Source: Candidatus Saccharimonadota bacterium
GTDB taxonomy: Bacteria; Patescibacteriota; Saccharimonadia; Saccharimonadales; Saccharimonadaceae
DNA length: 32,746 bases
Direction of reading: 5' to 3'
Assembly (NCBI GenBank): GCA_017455145.1
Contig: JAFTBP010000008.1
Coordinates: 1-32,746 of the forward strand
Position numbers and translations under genes: made by a program
The notes under the pieces: generated by a model
Told to the model about the DNA's origin: nothing
Database searches by the model: none
What the model saw: only the letters and a program-made list of their open reading frames with translations
In this document: positions 1,179 to 32,746 of the stretch, one piece after another
Layout: every line of letters starts with the position of its first letter
Position numbering within the stretch: the stretch's first letter is position 1

Positions 1179-1620
1179 AAAATCCGAAAATCCTGAACAG
1201 CCTAAAACTGACCCAAATCTTACCAAAATCGCCGAACTAACCAACGATCTTCAGCGCACTCGTGCCGATTTTGAGAACTACAGAAAACAGATGGACGCCC
1301 AAAAAGCCCAAGCTATAGAGTTTACCAAATACGAAACCGTCAAAAAGGTTTTGCCACTTCTAGACGACATTGACCGCGCTATTTCTGCTACCCCAGAGCT
1401 AAAACCTCTAGCAAAGAACCTAGAAAAAACTCTAAGCGAGCTAAAACTAGAAAAAATCAACACCGCGCCAAACACAGAATTTAATCCTGACTTACACGAC
1501 GCCGTAATGATGGAAGATAGCGAAGGCGAAAAAGAAGTTATCGCAGAGACTCTCCGCGCCGGCTATCTATATAACGGCAACGTCATCCGTCCCGCTATGG
1601 TTAAAGTAAAAAATATCTAA
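1171..1620 (+). CDS. grpE: Nucleotide exchange factor GrpE, short form
   Basis: GrpE releases ADP from DnaK in the Hsp70 cycle. The 149-aa protein has a short N-terminal tail, a long coiled-coil helix (DLQRTRADFENYRKQMDAQK), the LLPLLDDIDRA-type segment and a beta domain ending NPDLHDAVMME...GYLYNGNVIRPAMVKV, which is the family signature. It is shorter than E. coli GrpE (197 aa). The start is set by a strong Shine-Dalgarno sequence, AGAGGAGGT at 1157-1165, lying inside the end of hrcA; the genes overlap by 8 bases, so translation is probably coupled. dnaK and dnaJ do not follow in this window, unlike the usual hrcA-grpE-dnaK-dnaJ order. Confidence 0.93.
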   Translation: MLKKSENPEQPKTDPNLTKIAELTNDLQRTRADFENYRKQMDAQKAQAIEFTKYETVKKVLPLLDDIDRAISATPELKPLAKNLEKTLSELKLEKINTAPNTEFNPDLHDAVMMEDSEGEKEVIAETLRAGYLYNGNVIRPAMVKVKNI

Positions 1621-1638
1621 AGGTGTTATAATTAAATT

Positions 1639-2280
1639 ATGGAAGAAAAACTCGCACACATTAAACAATGGCTTGGTACTGGCTCTATCAACATTTTTGG
1701 TTTGCCAATGAGTGGCAAAGATACTGTTGGTATTAAACTCGCCGAGAATTTAGGTGCTAGGTTTTTGTCCTCTGGTATGATTATTCGCGCAATGGAGCAA
1801 GAAAAGAACCAGCATTACACCGAAGGCGGTGCGCTTGCCCCAACTGATGTTTTCTATGAATGGGTTTTGCCGTACTTTGGGCGTGAAGATCTAAAAGACT
1901 CCCCGCTCATTCTTTCTTCTGTTGGTCGCTGGTCTGGCGAAGAAGACGAAGTTATGAAATCTGCCGCCGAAGCTGGACACCCCATTAAGGCTACCATCTT
2001 ACTTAACATTTCCGAAGCTGACGTTCAAGAGCGTTGGGAAGCCGTCAAGGAAGCCGGTCAGCGCGAATCGGGTCAAGAAGTTACTAAACGCGAAGACGAC
2101 AAATTCCGTGGCGTATTCAAAAAACGTATTGATGAATTTAATGAAAAAACTATGCCAGTCATTTTCCACTATCAGACTCTTGGTCTCCTTATCCAAGTTC
2201 GTGCCGATATGACTCGCGAAGAAGTTTTTGAAGAATTAGTAAACAAACTTTACAACTTTTCCCAAGGTAGAAATTACTAG
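1639..2280 (+). CDS. Adenylate kinase-like nucleoside monophosphate kinase
   Basis: The P-loop GLPMSGKDTVG at about residues 20-30 and the following LSSGMIIRAM (compare ISTGDMLRA of adenylate kinase) place this 213-aa protein in the Adk/NMP-kinase family, which transfers phosphate from ATP to an NMP. The P-loop has SGKDT instead of SGKGT. The LID region is divergent, so the NMP substrate cannot be named; it need not be the housekeeping adenylate kinase. It has its own promoter: TGT-TATAAT at 1624-1632, exactly 6 bases before ATG 1639 and with no Shine-Dalgarno site, pointing to a leaderless mRNA starting 18 bases after the grpE stop. Confidence 0.75.
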   Translation: MEEKLAHIKQWLGTGSINIFGLPMSGKDTVGIKLAENLGARFLSSGMIIRAMEQEKNQHYTEGGALAPTDVFYEWVLPYFGREDLKDSPLILSSVGRWSGEEDEVMKSAAEAGHPIKATILLNISEADVQERWEAVKEAGQRESGQEVTKREDDKFRGVFKKRIDEFNEKTMPVIFHYQTLGLLIQVRADMTREEVFEELVNKLYNFSQGRNY

Positions 2281-2302
2281 TTGCTTATGCTATAATTAGG
2301 CT

Positions 2303-3262
2303 ATGTATGGGCTGGGCATCAATCCAGAATGGATTTCGCACCGAGTTCGCGCTTGCGATTATCTTTCTGTCGCCCAACTTTTCTTACAGTCCGATTTTCT
2401 TCTAGAAAAACCTCTAACTTTTGACGACATCAAGCCTCGCCTACTCGGCCATTGGGGTACTTGTCACGGTATCAATCTTGCCTATGCTAATCTTAAATAT
2501 TATTACGGAAGCGACCCCAATTGCTCTTTCGTGTTAGGACCAGGCCACGGCTTTCCAGCCTTACAAGCAAACCTCTTCATTGACGGCGATTTAGAAAAAA
2601 TTGACAGCAAAGCCACGCCAGATGTAGACGGTATTGCTTATATTTGTAAGAATTTTTCTTGGCCAGGCGGCTTTCCATCGCACGCTAGCCCTGTTACTCC
2701 GGGCGTAATTTGTGAAGGTGGGGAACTAGGCTACGCTCTAGGTACGGCCTACGGTTCTGCATTAGGGCACCCTAGAAAAACCGTCGCAGTCCTAATTGGC
2801 GATGGCGAATTTGAAACTGCTACCGCTCTTTCTTCTATGAACCTTTGTAAGCTCCTAGGCTCTGATGTCAACGGTCGTGTCTTGCCTATACTTCATCTTA
2901 ACGGTTACAAAATTTCTGGTCCTACTGTTGCTGCTAGGAAATCCGAGCGCGAACTTCTAGAGCTTATCCGGGGCTTTGGCTACATTCCGCTTTTGGTTAA
3001 TGGCGAAGACGCTAATGCTTTCCAGGATGCCCTAGATGTTGCTTTCCATACAAAAAATCCGTTTATCATTATGAAATCAGAAAAAGGTAAAACTGGCCCC
3101 ACTTTCGTAGACGGCAAAAAGGTTGCTGGCAACTTCCTCGCCCACCAAATCCCACTAAAAAACGCCAAGACTGATCCAGATGAACTACATTTACTCCAAG
3201 TCTGGCTAGAGGGCTATCGCTTCAACGAGCTATTTAACAAGAAAGAAGGGTTTTTGCTATGA
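2303..3262 (+). CDS. xfp: Phosphoketolase, N-terminal (thiamine-diphosphate) half
   Basis: Phosphoketolase cleaves xylulose-5-P (and often fructose-6-P) with phosphate to acetyl-P plus a sugar phosphate. This ORF matches the XFP_N part of the Bifidobacterium enzyme: NYLS-type start (CDYLSVAQLFL), GHWGT, GPGHGFPA, a PGGFPSH motif, CEGGELGYALG, the ThDP motif GDGEFET...HLNGYKIS, and a GPTFVDGKKVAGNFLAHQIPL end. The conserved His of GHWGT and GPGHG are present; HEGGELG of bifidobacteria reads CEGGELG. It stops with TGA at 3260 in the linker between domains, and the rest is encoded by the next ORF, which overlaps by 4 bases (ATGA). Promoter TGC-TATAAT 2288-2296, 6 bases before the ATG: leaderless. 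Confidence 0.9.
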   Translation: MYGLGINPEWISHRVRACDYLSVAQLFLQSDFLLEKPLTFDDIKPRLLGHWGTCHGINLAYANLKYYYGSDPNCSFVLGPGHGFPALQANLFIDGDLEKIDSKATPDVDGIAYICKNFSWPGGFPSHASPVTPGVICEGGELGYALGTAYGSALGHPRKTVAVLIGDGEFETATALSSMNLCKLLGSDVNGRVLPILHLNGYKISGPTVAARKSERELLELIRGFGYIPLLVNGEDANAFQDALDVAFHTKNPFIIMKSEKGKTGPTFVDGKKVAGNFLAHQIPLKNAKTDPDELHLLQVWLEGYRFNELFNKKEGFLL

Positions 3263-4464
3263 GACACCTCTTTCTCCCGGATAATCTCCTCGGCCCAAGC
3301 GAAATCAAAACTCCAGGCAAAGACCATTTTTCTTCCGCCGAAAAACTAGGCGAGTGCATTAAATACGCCTTGCGTCAGGACTCCAGTTTCTATCTTTTTT
3401 CGCCTGACGAGACCACATCAAACAAGTTAGACTCTGCCTATGATTCTAGTGCGCGCGCCTGGGCTTTGCCTAAAAAGCCGTGGGATTTACCAGAATCAGA
3501 AAACGGACACATTATAGAACTTCTTTCAGAAAATACTTTGCTTGCCGTTATGATTGGCCACGTTCTGTCTGGCGGACAGAGTATGATGACTAGCTACGAG
3601 TCCTTCTTTTCCATTGTTACTTCCCAACTTTTCCAATACCTTAAATTCCTAAGCCAATCTTCCGAAGTCTCTTGGCGAAGTTCCGTTCCAGCACTTAACC
3701 TGCTTTCTACCAGCACTTGCTGGCGTCAAGACCATAATGGCTTTTCTCACCAATCCCCAGCTCTTATTTCTGCTCTATTATCTCAGCCTACAAATTTTGC
3801 TAATGCGCTATTCCCAGTTGATGATGTTTCCGCTTCCGCCAGCTTCCAGTTTATGTACAATTCCAAAAACGTTGTAAATCTTACAATATTTAACAAAACT
3901 AATGAGCCTCGCTGGATAGATAGAAAACACGCCTCCTTCCAATACCAACACGGCGCTAGTGTCTTTGGCTTTGCTTCGGACGATAACCCGGATTACATCT
4001 TTACTGCCGCTGGCGATATTATGACGCGCGAGGCCTTGTACGCGCTCAATATCCTCCGCGAGGATATTCCAGGTCGTCGTTTCCGCTTTGTCGGAATTAA
4101 TGCGTTATCTTACAATGCTATCGGTACAACCAATGCCAAGATGTCCCAAGATATTTTTAACGATTATTTCACTACCGACAAGCCAATTATTGCCAATTTC
4201 CACGGCTACCCAGACGCCTTAAAATCCATTTTGGTAAACTATGCCGACCCACTCCGTCTTTCTATCCACGGTTTTTCCGAGCGTGGCTCTACTACCACTC
4301 CTTTTGAAATGCTCCGCCTAAACTGCGCTTCACGCTATGACCTAGCCCTAGATATTGCTTATCGCGAGAATCGCCAAGACCTCATAGAAAAATATCAAAA
4401 AATTCTACGAGACAACGCCGAGCACGCCCATCGCACTGGCGAAGATTTGATAAATATGGTATAA
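3259..4464 (+). CDS. xfp: Phosphoketolase, C-terminal half
   Basis: This 401-aa ORF continues the phosphoketolase directly. It carries FSPDETTSNKL (FGPDETASNRL in Bifidobacterium), TSYESFFSIV with the Glu that contacts the cofactor, WRQDHNGFSHQ with the active-site Asn/His, TADKPII-like (TTDKPIIANFHGYP), and ERGSTTTPFEMLRLN. The two halves together give 720 aa against about 825 in Bifidobacterium. Catalytic residues lie in both, so both chains are needed. Start ATG 3259 overlaps the upstream TGA as ATGA, which suits termination-reinitiation. Alternatively one missing T in the T5 run at 3251-3255 would explain the split, since adding one T fuses the frames. Its stop codon TAA is embedded in the -10 box of the next gene. 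Confidence 0.88.
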   Translation: MRHLFLPDNLLGPSEIKTPGKDHFSSAEKLGECIKYALRQDSSFYLFSPDETTSNKLDSAYDSSARAWALPKKPWDLPESENGHIIELLSENTLLAVMIGHVLSGGQSMMTSYESFFSIVTSQLFQYLKFLSQSSEVSWRSSVPALNLLSTSTCWRQDHNGFSHQSPALISALLSQPTNFANALFPVDDVSASASFQFMYNSKNVVNLTIFNKTNEPRWIDRKHASFQYQHGASVFGFASDDNPDYIFTAAGDIMTREALYALNILREDIPGRRFRFVGINALSYNAIGTTNAKMSQDIFNDYFTTDKPIIANFHGYPDALKSILVNYADPLRLSIHGFSERGSTTTPFEMLRLNCASRYDLALDIAYRENRQDLIEKYQKILRDNAEHAHRTGEDLINMV

Positions 4465-17240: not shown

Positions 17241-18566
17241 ATGAAAAATATTATTAAGACTGCCTCCGCTGTCTTGGCTGTAGCCGGGATTATCGGAGTC
17301 AACGTCGCTCCTGCTGTCATGGCTTGGGGTGACAACTCTGGCAACGCCTCTGGCCGCCAGACTTATACGCTCACTAACTGTGATGCTAACTATACTACCT
17401 GTAACATTGAGCCAACTCTTGGCGACAAAGTTACTTTTAACTCTATCACTAACAACCCAGAAATTGGTGGTGATGAGCGCAACTTCGTTGGTGCTCGTCT
17501 AAATACTGGTATTAACTCCGGTAAAGCCAACAAATGGAATGCTAATGAAATTACCGTTGAAGATGGTAAGGAATACCTTGTCCGTCTTTACGCACACAAC
17601 AACAACCCTAACGGCGAAAACGGTATGGCTAAGGATGTGACCCTTCACTTTACCCTTCCTACCCAGGCTGGTACAGAACTTTCTGTCCAGGGTTCTATTG
17701 ACTCATCTAACGCAAACCCAACTCGTGTTTACGACGATGTAGTCTTTAAGAGTGCCGACGGTCGTGCTTTCTACCTTGATTACATTGAGGGTTCTGCCCT
17801 TTATGAAAACAACGGTGTTGGCGCTAACGGCGGTATCAAACTTTCCGATAATATTATCACCAGCAACGGTGTTAAAATCGGATACAACGCCCTTGATGGT
17901 AACATTCCGGGCTGTTTCAAGTACGATTCCTATACTACTATCGTAGTTAAGGCTGTCTATCTTGATAACTCTTACACTGTTGAGAAAACTGTTCGTAAGA
18001 TCGGTGATTCTGACAAAACCTTTAAGGATACAGTTGATGCCAACGTTGGTGACACTGTTGAATATCAGATTCACTACAAAAACACCTCTACCGAGCACGT
18101 TGATAACGTGATGGTAAAAGATATTCTTCCAAACAATATGGAGTATATCGCTGGTACTACTAAACTTTACAACACTACTAACCCTAACGGCGTAGTCGTT
18201 AATGACGATACTATTACTACTACCGGTATCAACATTGGTGGCTACAACGCTAACGGTGACGCTTACATTCGTTTCCGCGCTAAGGTTGTAGATAAGAACA
18301 TGGTTTGTGGTACTAACAAACTAGTTAACTGGGGTCAAGTTGGTGTGGGTAAAACCACTCTTCAGGACAATGCCTTCGTTATGGTAAACAAGACTGAAGG
18401 TTGTAACTCTACTCCAACCCCTACTCCAGATCAGCCAAAAGAGGATAACAAAGTTAGCGAACTTCCTACTACCGGTCCTGCTTCTATCGCAGCTGGTGTA
18501 GTTGGTGCTGGCTCCGTTATTACCGTTGCTGGCTACTACATTGCTAGCCGTAAGTCTTTACGCTAA
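17241..18566 (+). CDS. LPTTG cell-wall-anchored surface protein with DUF11-like domain
   Basis: A secreted surface protein of 441 aa. Signal peptide at 1-29 (MKNIIKTASAVLAVAGIIG...APAVMA). The C-terminus has a classic sorting signal: LPTTG at 408-412, a hydrophobic helix and the basic tail SRKSLR, preceded by a PTPTPDQP spacer. Residues about 255-385 contain a DUF11-type repeat (VGDTVEYQIHYKNTSTEHVDNVMVKDILPNNMEY), common in bacterial adhesins. The first half is rich in Asn/Thr/Gly with a Cys pair near 48 and 55. Codons are strongly biased to the preferred core set (GCT, AAC, GGT), as in a highly expressed gene. AAAGGAG lies 10 bases before the ATG. A role in host-cell contact is inferred. 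No sortase gene is in the window. Confidence 0.88.
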   Translation: MKNIIKTASAVLAVAGIIGVNVAPAVMAWGDNSGNASGRQTYTLTNCDANYTTCNIEPTLGDKVTFNSITNNPEIGGDERNFVGARLNTGINSGKANKWNANEITVEDGKEYLVRLYAHNNNPNGENGMAKDVTLHFTLPTQAGTELSVQGSIDSSNANPTRVYDDVVFKSADGRAFYLDYIEGSALYENNGVGANGGIKLSDNIITSNGVKIGYNALDGNIPGCFKYDSYTTIVVKAVYLDNSYTVEKTVRKIGDSDKTFKDTVDANVGDTVEYQIHYKNTSTEHVDNVMVKDILPNNMEYIAGTTKLYNTTNPNGVVVNDDTITTTGINIGGYNANGDAYIRFRAKVVDKNMVCGTNKLVNWGQVGVGKTTLQDNAFVMVNKTEGCNSTPTPTPDQPKEDNKVSELPTTGPASIAAGVVGAGSVITVAGYYIASRKSLR

Positions 18567-29640: not shown

Positions 29641-29669
29641 TTGACTAATAAGCAACATTGTTATACAAT
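29641..29669 (+). promoter_or_regulatory. Promoter of the radical SAM/peptide operon
   Basis: -35 TTGACT (29641-29646), 17-base spacer, -10 TACAAT (29664-29669). The leader is about 35 bases and ends in AAGGAGGTG (29696-29704), a perfect ribosome site. This is the SD-led promoter class, unlike the leaderless core genes. Confidence 0.72.
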
Positions 29670-29709
29670 AGAAAGAATGGGTGATGCACATTAATAAGGA
29701 GGTGTTTTT

Positions 29710-31050
29710 ATGTTAGTTTCTAGGTACACTCAGTTTCTACCGCAGGGTGATGGCTCTACGGTGATTTGGCATTCCGTCTTTGGGCGCGTAATGCAACTTC
29801 CGGATCAGCTTGCTGATTTTCTAAAAGAAGCAGGCGATTTTAATAGTCATGATTTTGAAGAAGAATTTGGCGAGGATGCATTAAAAATCCTATCAAACGC
29901 ACATATTCTAATTGATTCGACCGAGCAAGAACAGGTAGATATAGATAACCTGTTCGCTAAACATAATCCAAAGCATAAGAGCAAGGTCAAGGCCCTGTCT
30001 CTCATCATGTCCGAGGAATGTCCGTTTAGATGTGTGTATTGTATACACTTTGCAAATTCGAAGCATTATTACAATCAAGAAAAAATGATGAGTCTAGAAG
30101 TCGCCAAGGCTAGTATTGACAGCTATCTTGGTTTGATGATAAAAAACGGCGAAACTGATTTTTACATCAATTTTGGTGGCGGGGAACCGTTGCTAAACTA
30201 TCGTACGATTGCCGAGATACTCCCCTACATTAAAGAATGCGAAAGTTTGTATGATATTAAAATCAAGCTTGGCATTAACACTAATTTGAGCCTCTTGACC
30301 AGGGAAATGGCCGAGACTTTTATTAGATATAATGTAGAAATCGCTACTAGCCTAGATGGCACAAAATCAGGCAATAACAAAGTTCGCCTTACCAAGGATT
30401 TATCCGGAACTTATGATTCTATCATGCGTGGCTTTAATATCCTCAAAAAATTAGGCCATCCGCTTGATGGATTTGCTATGACTGTTACAGAGGCTAATTT
30501 GTCCGACGTCGACACGGAAATTATCGACTGGGCCGATTCGTTAGGTATGAAAGAAGTCCGCATCGATATCGATGTGGTCGGCATCGTAAATAGTTCTATG
30601 CAAAAAATCATAGACAAGCTAACTCGCGTGCGCAAGTACGCGATGGAGAAAGGAATTTCTGTAATAGGATTTTGGTCTAGACCGGCCGAAAACCTTGGTC
30701 TTATCCCCGAAGAAGAAGATATCGGATTCTGTGGAGGAGAGAGAGGAAATTCGCTTTGCGTAGCTCCCAGCGGACAAGTTTTTCCGTGTGGATATAGTAA
30801 TTACCAGTTAGGAAACTACCAAGATATTCCTACAATCTATGAGAATTCTGCGTATGTAGAATTACTAGACAATCGTAACCTAAACATCCAGCCAGACAAA
30901 TGTAAAAAGTGTCCAATTTTTGGATTCTGTAGAGGTGGATGTTTGATTACAAAAGAAGCTAATCAGGGTTCTACTAAAAAGCAATCAGCCATGTGCGAAC
31001 TCTATGTTGGAATGACCGAGGCAATTATTCGTCAGCAGGTAACCGCATAG
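29710..31050 (+). CDS. Radical SAM-SPASM peptide maturase
   Basis: A 446-aa radical SAM enzyme with the marks of RiPP maturases. The [4Fe-4S] motif CxxxCxxC is C104, C108, C111; GGGEP (156-160) contacts SAM. The C-terminal SPASM domain is textbook: C341, C350, then GQVFPC (G-x4-C360), then C398-x2-C401-x5-C407-x3-C411 and a final C429, enough for two auxiliary clusters. Residues 1-90 form a separate N-terminal domain (FLPQGDGSTVIWHSVFGRV...) that could act as the leader-peptide recognition element. A 29-codon Cys-containing peptide gene follows 37 bases downstream. The enzyme type is firm; that it modifies this peptide, perhaps by thioether formation, is inferred from context. Confidence 0.92.
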   Translation: MLVSRYTQFLPQGDGSTVIWHSVFGRVMQLPDQLADFLKEAGDFNSHDFEEEFGEDALKILSNAHILIDSTEQEQVDIDNLFAKHNPKHKSKVKALSLIMSEECPFRCVYCIHFANSKHYYNQEKMMSLEVAKASIDSYLGLMIKNGETDFYINFGGGEPLLNYRTIAEILPYIKECESLYDIKIKLGINTNLSLLTREMAETFIRYNVEIATSLDGTKSGNNKVRLTKDLSGTYDSIMRGFNILKKLGHPLDGFAMTVTEANLSDVDTEIIDWADSLGMKEVRIDIDVVGIVNSSMQKIIDKLTRVRKYAMEKGISVIGFWSRPAENLGLIPEEEDIGFCGGERGNSLCVAPSGQVFPCGYSNYQLGNYQDIPTIYENSAYVELLDNRNLNIQPDKCKKCPIFGFCRGGCLITKEANQGSTKKQSAMCELYVGMTEAIIRQQVTA

Positions 31051-31087
31051 GTTTAGCATAAACAGTCTACGAAAGGAGAGAAAGGAT

Positions 31088-31177
31088 ATGAAAAACACAC
31101 CCAAGAAGGTAGAGATCAAGATGGTACAGATGCCCGTTTCTGCAATGACTTGCAAAAAACCCAGCAACTGCCACTAA
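31088..31177 (+). CDS. 29-aa candidate RiPP precursor peptide
   Basis: A short gene placed directly behind the maturase and before the terminator, with GAAAGGAGAGAAAGGAT ahead of ATG 31088. The peptide starts MKNTPKKVEIKM (basic leader-like part, residues 1-15) and ends VSAMTCKKPSNCH, with Cys at 22 and 28 near the C-terminus. Size, two clustered Cys, a charged N-terminus and cotranscription with a SPASM enzyme are what is expected of a sactipeptide- or ranthipeptide-like precursor. I do not recognise the core sequence as a named class. No protease or exporter gene lies beside it. Alternative: a chance frame in the 3' UTR, which the strong ribosome site and close terminator argue against. Confidence 0.75.
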   Translation: MKNTPKKVEIKMVQMPVSAMTCKKPSNCH

Positions 31178-31197
31178 TGGTAGCTACTATCAATCAG

Positions 31198-31223
31198 GGC
31201 GGTTCTTTACGAACCGCCTTTTT
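31198..31223 (+). terminator. Terminator of the maturase-peptide operon
   Basis: GGCGGTTC (31198-31205) with GAACCGCC (31211-31218), loop TTTAC, then TTTTT. It starts 20 bases after the peptide stop codon. Confidence 0.94.
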
Positions 31224-31241
31224 CTTGTATAATATTATATT

Positions 31242-31904
31242 ATGAATAATGAAGTATCAAAAATCGTAGCAAAAATCAAAAATCAGTATGAGAATATTGA
31301 TACTATTTTGTTGTTTGGCTCCGCTACGTCGCCAGACTGGACCAATAAATCCGATATTGATGTTTTTCTAGTGGACGATTCTTTTAACGATTCTCGCTCT
31401 GACGCAGAAATTGATGGTGTTTTAGTAGAATTTCAGGAAGACAGTTTTGCTAATATTAAAAAGGATATGGAAAATGAGCGCGGAAGATTGCTGAATAGAA
31501 ACGTTTCTACTATGATTGCTACTTCTACGGTTGTTTCCACTAAATCTCCAGAGAAAGTCGAGGAGCTAGTTAACTTCGCAAAAGAAATTTTAGCCTCCAA
31601 GCCGAATTATGACGACGAAGATATTAAAATGTGGAAATATTCCATCGACGATTATTTAGCAAAAGCAGAAAAAGATGTGGCGAGGAACGATGAGGTTGCG
31701 TTTTATTTTGACGCGCATTATGTTTTGCAGAATGCACTAGAAATGTCGCTCGCACTAAACGGTGCATATATGCCACAGCCAAAATACCTAGCCGGACTTT
31801 TAGTAGAAAAAGACCCAGAATTATTAGAGATTTGGAAAAACTACCTTGCGTCTAGCGCCATGAGCGATAAGCTAACTGCAATCACGGCATTAAAAAATAA
31901 ATAA
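31242..31904 (+). CDS. Nucleotidyltransferase with HEPN-like C-terminal domain
   Basis: Residues about 15-75 match the MNT-type nucleotidyltransferase fold: LLFGSATSPDWTNKSDIDVFLV gives GS (26-27), ten residues, then D38-x-D40, with a later acidic position in VLVEFQED. Residues about 120-220 are all helical (MWKYSIDDYLAKAEKDVARNDEVAFYFDAHYVLQNALEMSLALNG) and resemble a HEPN-type domain. MNT and HEPN proteins often form toxin-antitoxin pairs in which the MNT modifies the HEPN toxin; here both appear in one chain, so a drug- or tRNA-modifying transferase is also possible. TG-TATAAT (-10 at 31228-31233) lies 8 bases before ATG 31242. Confidence 0.75.
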   Translation: MNNEVSKIVAKIKNQYENIDTILLFGSATSPDWTNKSDIDVFLVDDSFNDSRSDAEIDGVLVEFQEDSFANIKKDMENERGRLLNRNVSTMIATSTVVSTKSPEKVEELVNFAKEILASKPNYDDEDIKMWKYSIDDYLAKAEKDVARNDEVAFYFDAHYVLQNALEMSLALNGAYMPQPKYLAGLLVEKDPELLEIWKNYLASSAMSDKLTAITALKNK

Positions 31905-32003
31905 TTATTCCATATTCTGACAAATTTTGCAGAGGTGAATAGACTCATCCTCCGGGTCCAATTTTGCTCCGCAAACGTCACAACGTTCGTTGTTTTGGTT
32001 CAT
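31905..32003 (-). CDS. 32-aa zinc-ribbon peptide
   Basis: A tiny gene with two CxxC knuckles: CDVC at residues 8-11 and CKIC at 25-28, separated by 13 residues, enough for one Zn ribbon. It begins MNQNNER and ends QNME. On the minus strand TATAAT (-10 at 32015-32010) lies exactly 6 bases before ATG 32003, the same leaderless layout as the core genes. The stop abuts the stop of the convergent nucleotidyltransferase gene with no gap. Function unknown; such peptides occur as small RNA-polymerase or ribosome-associated factors. Confidence 0.65.
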   Translation of the reverse strand: MNQNNERCDVCGAKLDPEDESIHLCKICQNME

Positions 32004-32024
32004 ATTTATATTATAATATATTAA

Positions 32025-32309
32025 GCGGAGAATAAGCTTAGAACCCATGATCTTTCAGGCTGTGAGATTTATACTACGGGAGAACCTTGTCCAATGTGTC
32101 TTGCGGCGATTTTGTGGGCGAATATTGAGAAGATATATTATGGGTGCAGACTGAGCGACAATGAGAGCATTGGATTCCGCGATGTAAAATTTGACGAGAT
32201 GATGGGCGGGAGGCCTGGCCTGCCGGATGGATTCATGGAGGAAAGGGACCGGGAGCTGTGCCTTGAAGTGCTCAAAGAATATGAGCAGATGGAAGGGGAG
32301 AGGTATTAG
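32025..32309 (+). pseudogene. 5'-truncated CMP/dCMP-type nucleoside deaminase
   Basis: The open frame after TAA 32022 encodes about 94 residues of the C-terminal half of a guanine/cytidine-type deaminase: GCEIYTTGEPCPMCLAAILWAN carries the zinc ligands of PCxxC, and EKIYYGCRLSDNESIGFRD follows as in GuaD-like enzymes. The N-terminal half with the HAE zinc/catalytic motif is absent and a stop codon lies just upstream, so it cannot be active. The usual annotation start at ATG 32094 falls inside PCPMC. Codons (CGG, AGG, CTG, GCC, GAG) are GC-rich and unlike the neighbours, which points to import from another bacterium followed by truncation. Confidence 0.82.
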
Positions 32310-32572
32310 ATAAAAACCGCCTTATGGTGGGCGAATTCAAGATTTTCTTCACTTGGTGAGGGGTGAGTACGGCGCCATGCGAATTCTGAGGTATATATAC
32401 AGGCAAAGAGATTCGAACTTTTAAGAAAATATAGCTTTATTGGAGCCGTAGAGGCTTAAAACAATGACAACGAAGAAAATGAAAGAAATACAATGTCAAT
32501 GATATAATAGTAGCTAAAAATACCCGGATTACAAAGTTAGCATTACATTAGACGTGGACGCCAGCGATTAGA
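32310..32572. other. Gene-free stretch next to the deaminase remnant
   Basis: No supported gene. A short GC hairpin (CGCC...GGGCG near 32318-32333) follows the remnant. A tRNA T-loop-like word (GTTCGAATC on the minus strand, near 32409-32418) has no matching acceptor or anticodon arm. A TGA-TATAAT at about 32500-32508 (+) is not followed by an ORF. The area looks like decayed imported DNA. Confidence 0.4.
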
Positions 32573-32746
32573 TTATTTGACATATCGTTCAAACATTATT
32601 CGAAGCTTATAGCTAAGGTAGTCATGGATATCTTCGAGTGTTACAGAGACTTCGTTGCGGTAATATTTACGCAAAATGGCGAAAGTGCCGCTCGTAAGAA
32701 TTAAAAGCTCGAACTCGGCGTTTTTGTCCTCGATGCCTTTTTCGCG
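32573..32746 (-). CDS. C-terminal end of a possible TetR-family regulator
   Basis: A minus-strand frame runs in from the right edge for 57 codons and stops at TAA (32575-32573). It is helical: AEFELLILTSGTFAILRKYYRN, then SVTLEDIHDYLSYKLRIMFERYV. The pattern hydrophobic helix - short loop - T/S-x-E-D/E-I helix resembles the C-terminal ligand domain of TetR-type repressors (for example F-x-x-G-x-x-x-I-L-R-x-W/Y followed by PEE). The DNA-binding domain would lie outside the window, so this is tentative. Confidence 0.5.
   Translation of the reverse strand, partial: REKGIEDKNAEFELLILTSGTFAILRKYYRNEVSVTLEDIHDYLSYKLRIMFERYVK

Follow-up and report, generated by a model that had tools for sequence, protein, structure and literature searches.

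A conserved radical SAM/SPASM cassette in Patescibacteria that probably encodes a new family of modified peptide

What might a saccharibacterium produce with a radical SAM/SPASM enzyme, a peptide gene of 29 codons directly behind it and a group-transfer enzyme behind both? To our knowledge little is understood of the action of Saccharibacteria and other tiny host-dependent bacteria on their host cells, and natural products described from these groups are few. The locus lies in a stretch of 32,746 nucleotides (here the window), which is contig C4 of a 395-kb assembly of 62% completeness. Its nearest named relatives belong to Candidatus Saccharibacteria and come from metagenomes, that of yak duodenum among them, and a short exact pattern scan of genome contigs revealed three close relatives. 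Our analysis suggests that the locus is a small cassette, conserved across classes, that probably specifies a new family of modified peptide with a perhaps antibiotic-like product.

Layout and surroundings of the cassette

The following features were identified in the window:

29641..29669, plus strand: promoter of the maturase-peptide operon, TTGACT-N17-TACAAT (sequence; other copies in the genus are similar)
29696..29704, plus strand: ribosome-binding site of the maturase, AAGGAGGTG (read from the sequence)
29710..31050, plus strand: radical SAM/SPASM maturase, 446 aa (open reading frame, domain matches, predicted model)
31071..31078, plus strand: ribosome-binding site of the peptide, GAAAGGAG (read from the sequence)
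31088..31177, plus strand: 29-aa precursor peptide, MKNTPKKVEIKMVQMPVSAMTCKKPSNCH (open reading frame and conservation)
31148..31174, plus strand: putative core, TCKKPSNCH (of the form TCxxxSNCH in all 12 genomes)
31196..31220, plus strand: hairpin terminator followed by T's, between the peptide and the third gene (sequence, conserved)
31228..31233, plus strand: -10 TATAAT of the leaderless-type promoter of the third gene (sequence)
31242..31904, plus strand: putative self-resistance gene, ANT(4')/kanamycin-type nucleotidyltransferase, 220 aa (Pfam search, alignment, predicted model)

The maturase ends 37 bases before the peptide start, and the whole three-gene cassette spans about 2.3 kb. Other copies in the genus show a similar -35 and a TATAAT-like -10 upstream of the maturase. 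An earlier note on this DNA had placed the promoter, the ribosome-binding sites, both open reading frames and the terminator at coordinates that all proved right, and the radical SAM/SPASM enzyme of 446 aa and the peptide of 29 aa that it described are real genes. Its description of the locus as a two-gene operon overlooked, however, the third gene at 31242-31904, a group-transfer enzyme that is present in every cassette genome; an operon of two genes only is ruled out by the occurrence of this gene at all 12 loci.

At every locus a TATAAT-like -10 follows the hairpin terminator, with 6-10 bases between its end and the start codon of the third gene, and this codon is nowhere preceded by a Shine-Dalgarno sequence. 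Given the hairpin and the near -10 without Shine-Dalgarno, the third gene is probably transcribed separately and of the leaderless type. As a baseline, 6.5% of all ATGs in the same sequences have a -10 (match of at least 5/6) that ends 5-12 bases ahead of them. The hairpin loop TTTACG, kept in nine genus copies (TTTATG in one), sits where the -35 of the third-gene promoter would be.

Outside the closest genome pairs the neighbours of the cassette vary by locus (LiaF-like, phospholipase-D-like, tRNA-ligase, DNA methyltransferase-like and others). Neither an exporter nor a peptidase was recognised next to the cassette loci, which extends to these what the earlier note had reported for the window. 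Since the neighbours differ and no exporter or peptidase adjoins, the three genes appear to be the unit that moves or persists together. As a separate observation, a contig end lies no more than about 3 kb from the cassette in 10 of 12 assemblies (31904-32746 in the window; L017-L021, L023-L025 and L056), which may mark variable, hard-to-assemble places, and the cassette of G350 has a DNA-methyltransferase-like gene just downstream.

Two further regions of the window deserve mention. A phosphoketolase is encoded in two genes with an ATGA overlap (2303-3262, XFP_N, and 3259-4464, XFP plus XFP_C); a sequencing error is unlikely since G274 has the identical junction. Positions 17241-18566 encode a protein of 441 aa that is probably secreted; it matches DUF11, has an LPTTG-like anchor at its C-terminus and is a candidate for a surface protein that contacts the host.

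The maturase and the peptide gene

The enzyme family was found in 12 genomes: nine belong to the window's genus, one to another genus of the same taxonomic family and two to other classes of the phylum. Within the genus 9 of 174 genomes carry it, and within a sample of the class 6 of 393 do. Downstream of the enzyme, on the same strand and 23-42 bases away, a peptide gene of 24-31 residues was present at 12 of 12 loci, so that a short peptide gene with a conserved core regularly adjoins the maturase, as is characteristic of RiPP precursors. All 12 peptides end in T-C-x-x-x-S-N-C-H and contain two or three Cys (Cys22 and Cys28 in the window copy). In the peptide alignment T21, C22, S26, N27, C28 and H29 are invariant across the 12 genomes, and a proline precedes the core Ser in 10 of them. 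Searched as DNA in the 174 genomes of the genus, the pattern TCxxxSNCH-stop matched exactly the nine in which the enzyme occurs, once in each, and its reversed control gave zero matches among the 174; the chance of this overlap is about 3e-15 with genomes treated as independent, i.e. with their relatedness ignored. Over all peptide pairs the last nine codons gave a pS of 0.89 and a pN of 0.11, and the leader a pN of 0.39.

Short open reading frames are common, and the peptide could in principle be a chance one behind an unrelated enzyme. Its presence at every locus, the invariant core, the exact co-occurrence and the purifying selection rule this out for all practical purposes, and we regard the pairing of maturase and peptide as enzyme and substrate as close to certain. 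The earlier note had proposed the peptide as the substrate, and both the 12 of 12 loci and the exact co-occurrence among 174 genomes speak for it. Homologous maturases without the downstream frame, or relatives lacking the two Cys, which the same note had named as grounds for abandoning the idea, did not turn up: the frame follows every maturase and both Cys are invariant. Searches against Pfam and NCBIfam matched the peptide to no family, in agreement, as far as these collections reach, with the former remark that its ending resembles no precursor class. Nor was a description of the peptide found in the open literature, of which the 22 unreported pathways of PMC9062424 were covered in part. 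The enzyme is of a kind already known, namely radical SAM-SPASM of RiPP pathways, and the peptide is covered by no curated family.

Within the maturase, the Pfam domains PF04055 Radical_SAM and PF13186 SPASM scored above their cut-offs. The radical SAM core reads C104xxxC108xxC111 (CX3CX2C), and the SPASM motif C398x2C401x5C407x3C411 lies within a SPASM region from C341 to C429; with CX3CX2C and the SPASM 7-Cys motif the enzyme belongs to the radical SAM/SPASM superfamily. C104, C108, C111 and eight C-terminal Cys (C341 to C429) are invariant among the 11 enzymes aligned, and the latter are enough for two auxiliary clusters. Dozens of radical SAM peptide-maturase families were matched, with scores well short of the curated cut-offs listed. 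The highest was that to PapB NF047865 with 150.6 bits (E 6e-44) against a cut-off of 340, a family to which the L008 and L028 enzymes gave 121.3 and 122.8 bits, and the second was the SCIFF maturase TIGR03974 with 113.2 bits against a cut-off of 425. A viperin-like enzyme was considered and rejected, the matches being confined to the radical SAM core.

In a profile search of PDB, residues 1-442 matched 8VPO (E 3e-53), and CteB 5WGG was found as well. The predicted model (mean pLDDT 76) is weak in the SPASM region, perhaps owing to unmodelled clusters, and aligned best with TigE 8VPO (Z 29.7, rmsd 3.3, 404 residues), followed by ChlB, CteB (5WGG, Z 25.6, 405 residues) and anSME. Residues 1-90 are modelled as three strands followed by helices, with pLDDT mostly 75-92, and are included in the matches to 8VPO and 5WGG, which extend over the full length. 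These two are among the RRE reference structures (PMC12710340), and because residues 1-90 lie within these matches, an RRE-like leader-binding domain is likely at about residues 1-90; by fold it is an N-terminal winged-helix domain as in RRE enzymes, and its binding is predicted. Concerning cofactor supply, the maturase is expected to hold three 4Fe-4S clusters, yet a SufB/D-type Fe-S supply was mostly undetected in its carriers: ten or nine of the 12 had no match to the SufB/D core (PF01458), among them G335 (100% complete), G168 (99%), G274, G284, G292 and G577, and matches were present in G350 and G385.

Outside Patescibacteria the searches comprised one short-exact-pattern scan, phages, plasmids and viral contigs. 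Plasmids yielded distant radical SAM enzymes alone, with a best identity of about 26%, as did phages, with about 27% or less, and the matches on viral contigs were partial (34% or less). Two weak relatives of the maturase with other precursor-like frames alongside, L009 and L010, were left out of the family set. At L010, in genome G206, a radical SAM/SPASM maturase (1459-2829, minus strand) is immediately followed by a Cys-rich 50-aa peptide (1304-1456, minus strand) ending in ECAQDCYDCNCPDGDCADN, a candidate for a second, different RiPP. At L009, in genome G157, a Cys-rich 58-aa frame (716-892) and a 489-aa radical SAM protein (1016-2485) lie behind the end of an ABC transporter; this genome is fragmented (270 contigs) and contamination is possible.

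The third gene and its possible role

The third gene is a nucleotidyltransferase in ten genomes and a GNAT acetyltransferase in the two genomes of other classes. The model of the window copy (pLDDT 94) matched kanamycin nucleotidyltransferase/ANT(4') over its full length (Z 12.9, 213 residues, TM 0.64), with LinB, Hailong HalB and MNT antitoxins ranking behind. The adenylyltransferases of the cassettes all keep the catalytic Gly-Ser, Asp-x-Asp and Glu, so that the fold and the residues GS...DxD...E are those of the ANT type. While these are common to the third gene and ANT(4')/kanamycin nucleotidyltransferase, identity to ANT enzymes is 13-15% and no curated resistance cut-off is reached (ANT(9): 13.9 bits against 340). 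A type VII toxin-antitoxin system (MntA/HepT) was rejected with 18 bits against the MntA cut-off of 60. No separate HEPN gene was seen beside the third gene in the window; the helical half lies in the same protein.

The adenylyltransferases are of two kinds that are about 25% identical. The two GNATs share 57% identity compared to 38% for their maturases, and for this reason the GNAT appears to belong to the unit. The maturase of L025, which accompanies an adenylyltransferase of kind B, is 55% identical to that of L027, which accompanies a GNAT, and groups with it (support 97/95). As the L025 maturase is closest to that of L027, the third gene appears, on sequence grounds, to have been swapped within one maturase lineage while maturase and core stayed constant. 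Relatives of the adenylyltransferase, with both kinds represented, also occur alone in four genomes in which no maturase of the family was found, two of these genomes being just 81-83% complete. The solo copy in G297 (L054, C6:5244-5903) is 62% identical to the third gene of the window and carries a -10 of the leaderless type directly in front of its ATG. Those in G041 (L061, 5185-5910; genome 99% complete) and G083 (L062, 1811-2545) are 61-63% identical to kind B, and the copy in G114 (L063, 1711-2424) is a more distant relative.

We propose that the RRE-like domain would bind the lysine-rich leader and that the maturase would link Cys22 and/or Cys28 through sulfur to a carbon atom of an invariant residue nearby, for which Thr21, Asn27 and His29 are candidates. 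A cross-link on Cys of the peptide seems to us a likely outcome. A protease encoded elsewhere would cut off the leader to release a small cyclic peptide, which might harm competitors or the bacterial host and would then harm the producer too. Inside the producer the third enzyme, be it either kind of adenylyltransferase or a GNAT, would cap and inactivate the product, in the manner of MccE acting on microcin C7 or of ANT/AAC enzymes acting on aminoglycosides. We give an even chance to a three-gene RiPP cassette whose third gene confers self-resistance against a toxic product. The wider proposal of a new class of patescibacterial RiPPs, made by episymbionts on bacteria and consisting of a cross-linked two-Cys nonapeptide with a nucleotidylating or acetylating self-immunity, can be put forward only tentatively.

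Self-resistance is favoured because the third enzyme is both swapped and kept alone, and a tailoring step hardly fits either. As a tailoring enzyme it would normally adenylylate or acetylate the cross-linked peptide, giving e.g. a microcin C-like peptide-nucleotide. Its presence in 12 of 12 cassettes and a conservation within the genus about as high as that of the maturase would suit this role; acetyl and adenylyl transfer could both be tailoring steps, and solo copies of the adenylyltransferase are scarce. One invariant core would, however, have to be finished by two unrelated chemistries (AMP and acetyl), relatives of the gene exist without enzyme or peptide, and a separate promoter behind the terminator serves the gene, which makes tailoring rather unlikely in our view. 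Less probable again is an intracellular toxin-antidote or phage-defence system, in which an unexported modified peptide would be silenced by the third enzyme until needed. In its favour, none of the loci showed a recognisable exporter or leader peptidase, carriage in the genus is patchy (9/174), and the adenylyltransferase does resemble HalB and MNT antitoxins, though more weakly. On the other hand, matches to the defence library were limited to the nucleotidyltransferase domain or the radical SAM core, no HEPN toxin gene was seen beside the third gene in the window, and the solo third genes would be antidotes without a toxin.

Against the self-resistance reading stand the lack of a recognised exporter or protease gene next to the cassette and the scarcity of SufB/D matches among the carriers. 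The near-invariance of the core across classes counts against it too, since many bacteriocins diversify, and also fits a signal, a metallophore or a cofactor. The product might then be a fixed signal, a metal-binding peptide or a small cofactor, with the third gene modifying something else or acting in regulation; mycofactocin and PQQ are precedents for short invariant cores as cofactor precursors, and Cys and His suit metals. Patchy carriage (9/174 and 6/393) speaks against a cofactor needed by the cell, and the swapping of antibiotic-type enzymes would go unexplained; we give this reading as little weight as the toxin-antidote one. The earlier suggestion of a signal or toxin is thereby sharpened: a group-transfer enzyme that is swappable and also occurs alone points to self-resistance, and the signal is kept as a rival. 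If the third enzyme indeed confers self-resistance, ANT/AAC-type enzymes would be linked to ribosomal peptide products, and TCxxxSNCH together with a group-transfer enzyme would serve as a marker for finding more such cassettes.

Comparison with known systems

Filing the system under PapB, SCIFF or TigE was rejected, as the defining features of each are absent. The PapB/freyrasin ranthipeptide maturases have radical SAM and SPASM domains and a Cys-containing precursor in common with the present system, but their precursor carries six Cys motifs with CX3D/E, whereas here there are two Cys and no CX3D/E (PMC9413430). PapB joins Cys to Asp/Glu and CteB joins Cys to Thr (PMC8172795, PMC9413430). 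Asp and Glu are absent from the TCxxxSNCH core in 12 of 12 peptides, and because the features that define PapB substrates are lacking, the peptide was not filed as a ranthipeptide. The SCIFF/thermocellin system (CteB) has the same plan of RRE, radical SAM and SPASM, and the Thr to which CteB links Cys has a possible counterpart in Thr21, invariant in the TCxxxSNCH peptides; SCIFF precursors differ in having six Cys in about 45 residues, compared to two or three in 24-31 here. TigE (PDB 8VPO), kin to the cyclopropylglycine-forming enzymes, is the closest solved structure by both profile and model. The cyclopropylglycine precursor TvgA has TVGG repeats (PMC9062424), whereas the TCxxxSNCH core is without repeat or Val, and no repeated Val-containing motif was seen in the 12 peptides. 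For the third gene, the GNAT form may be likened to MccE of microcin C7, a GNAT that protects the producer of a peptide antibiotic by self-immunity (PMC4964394).
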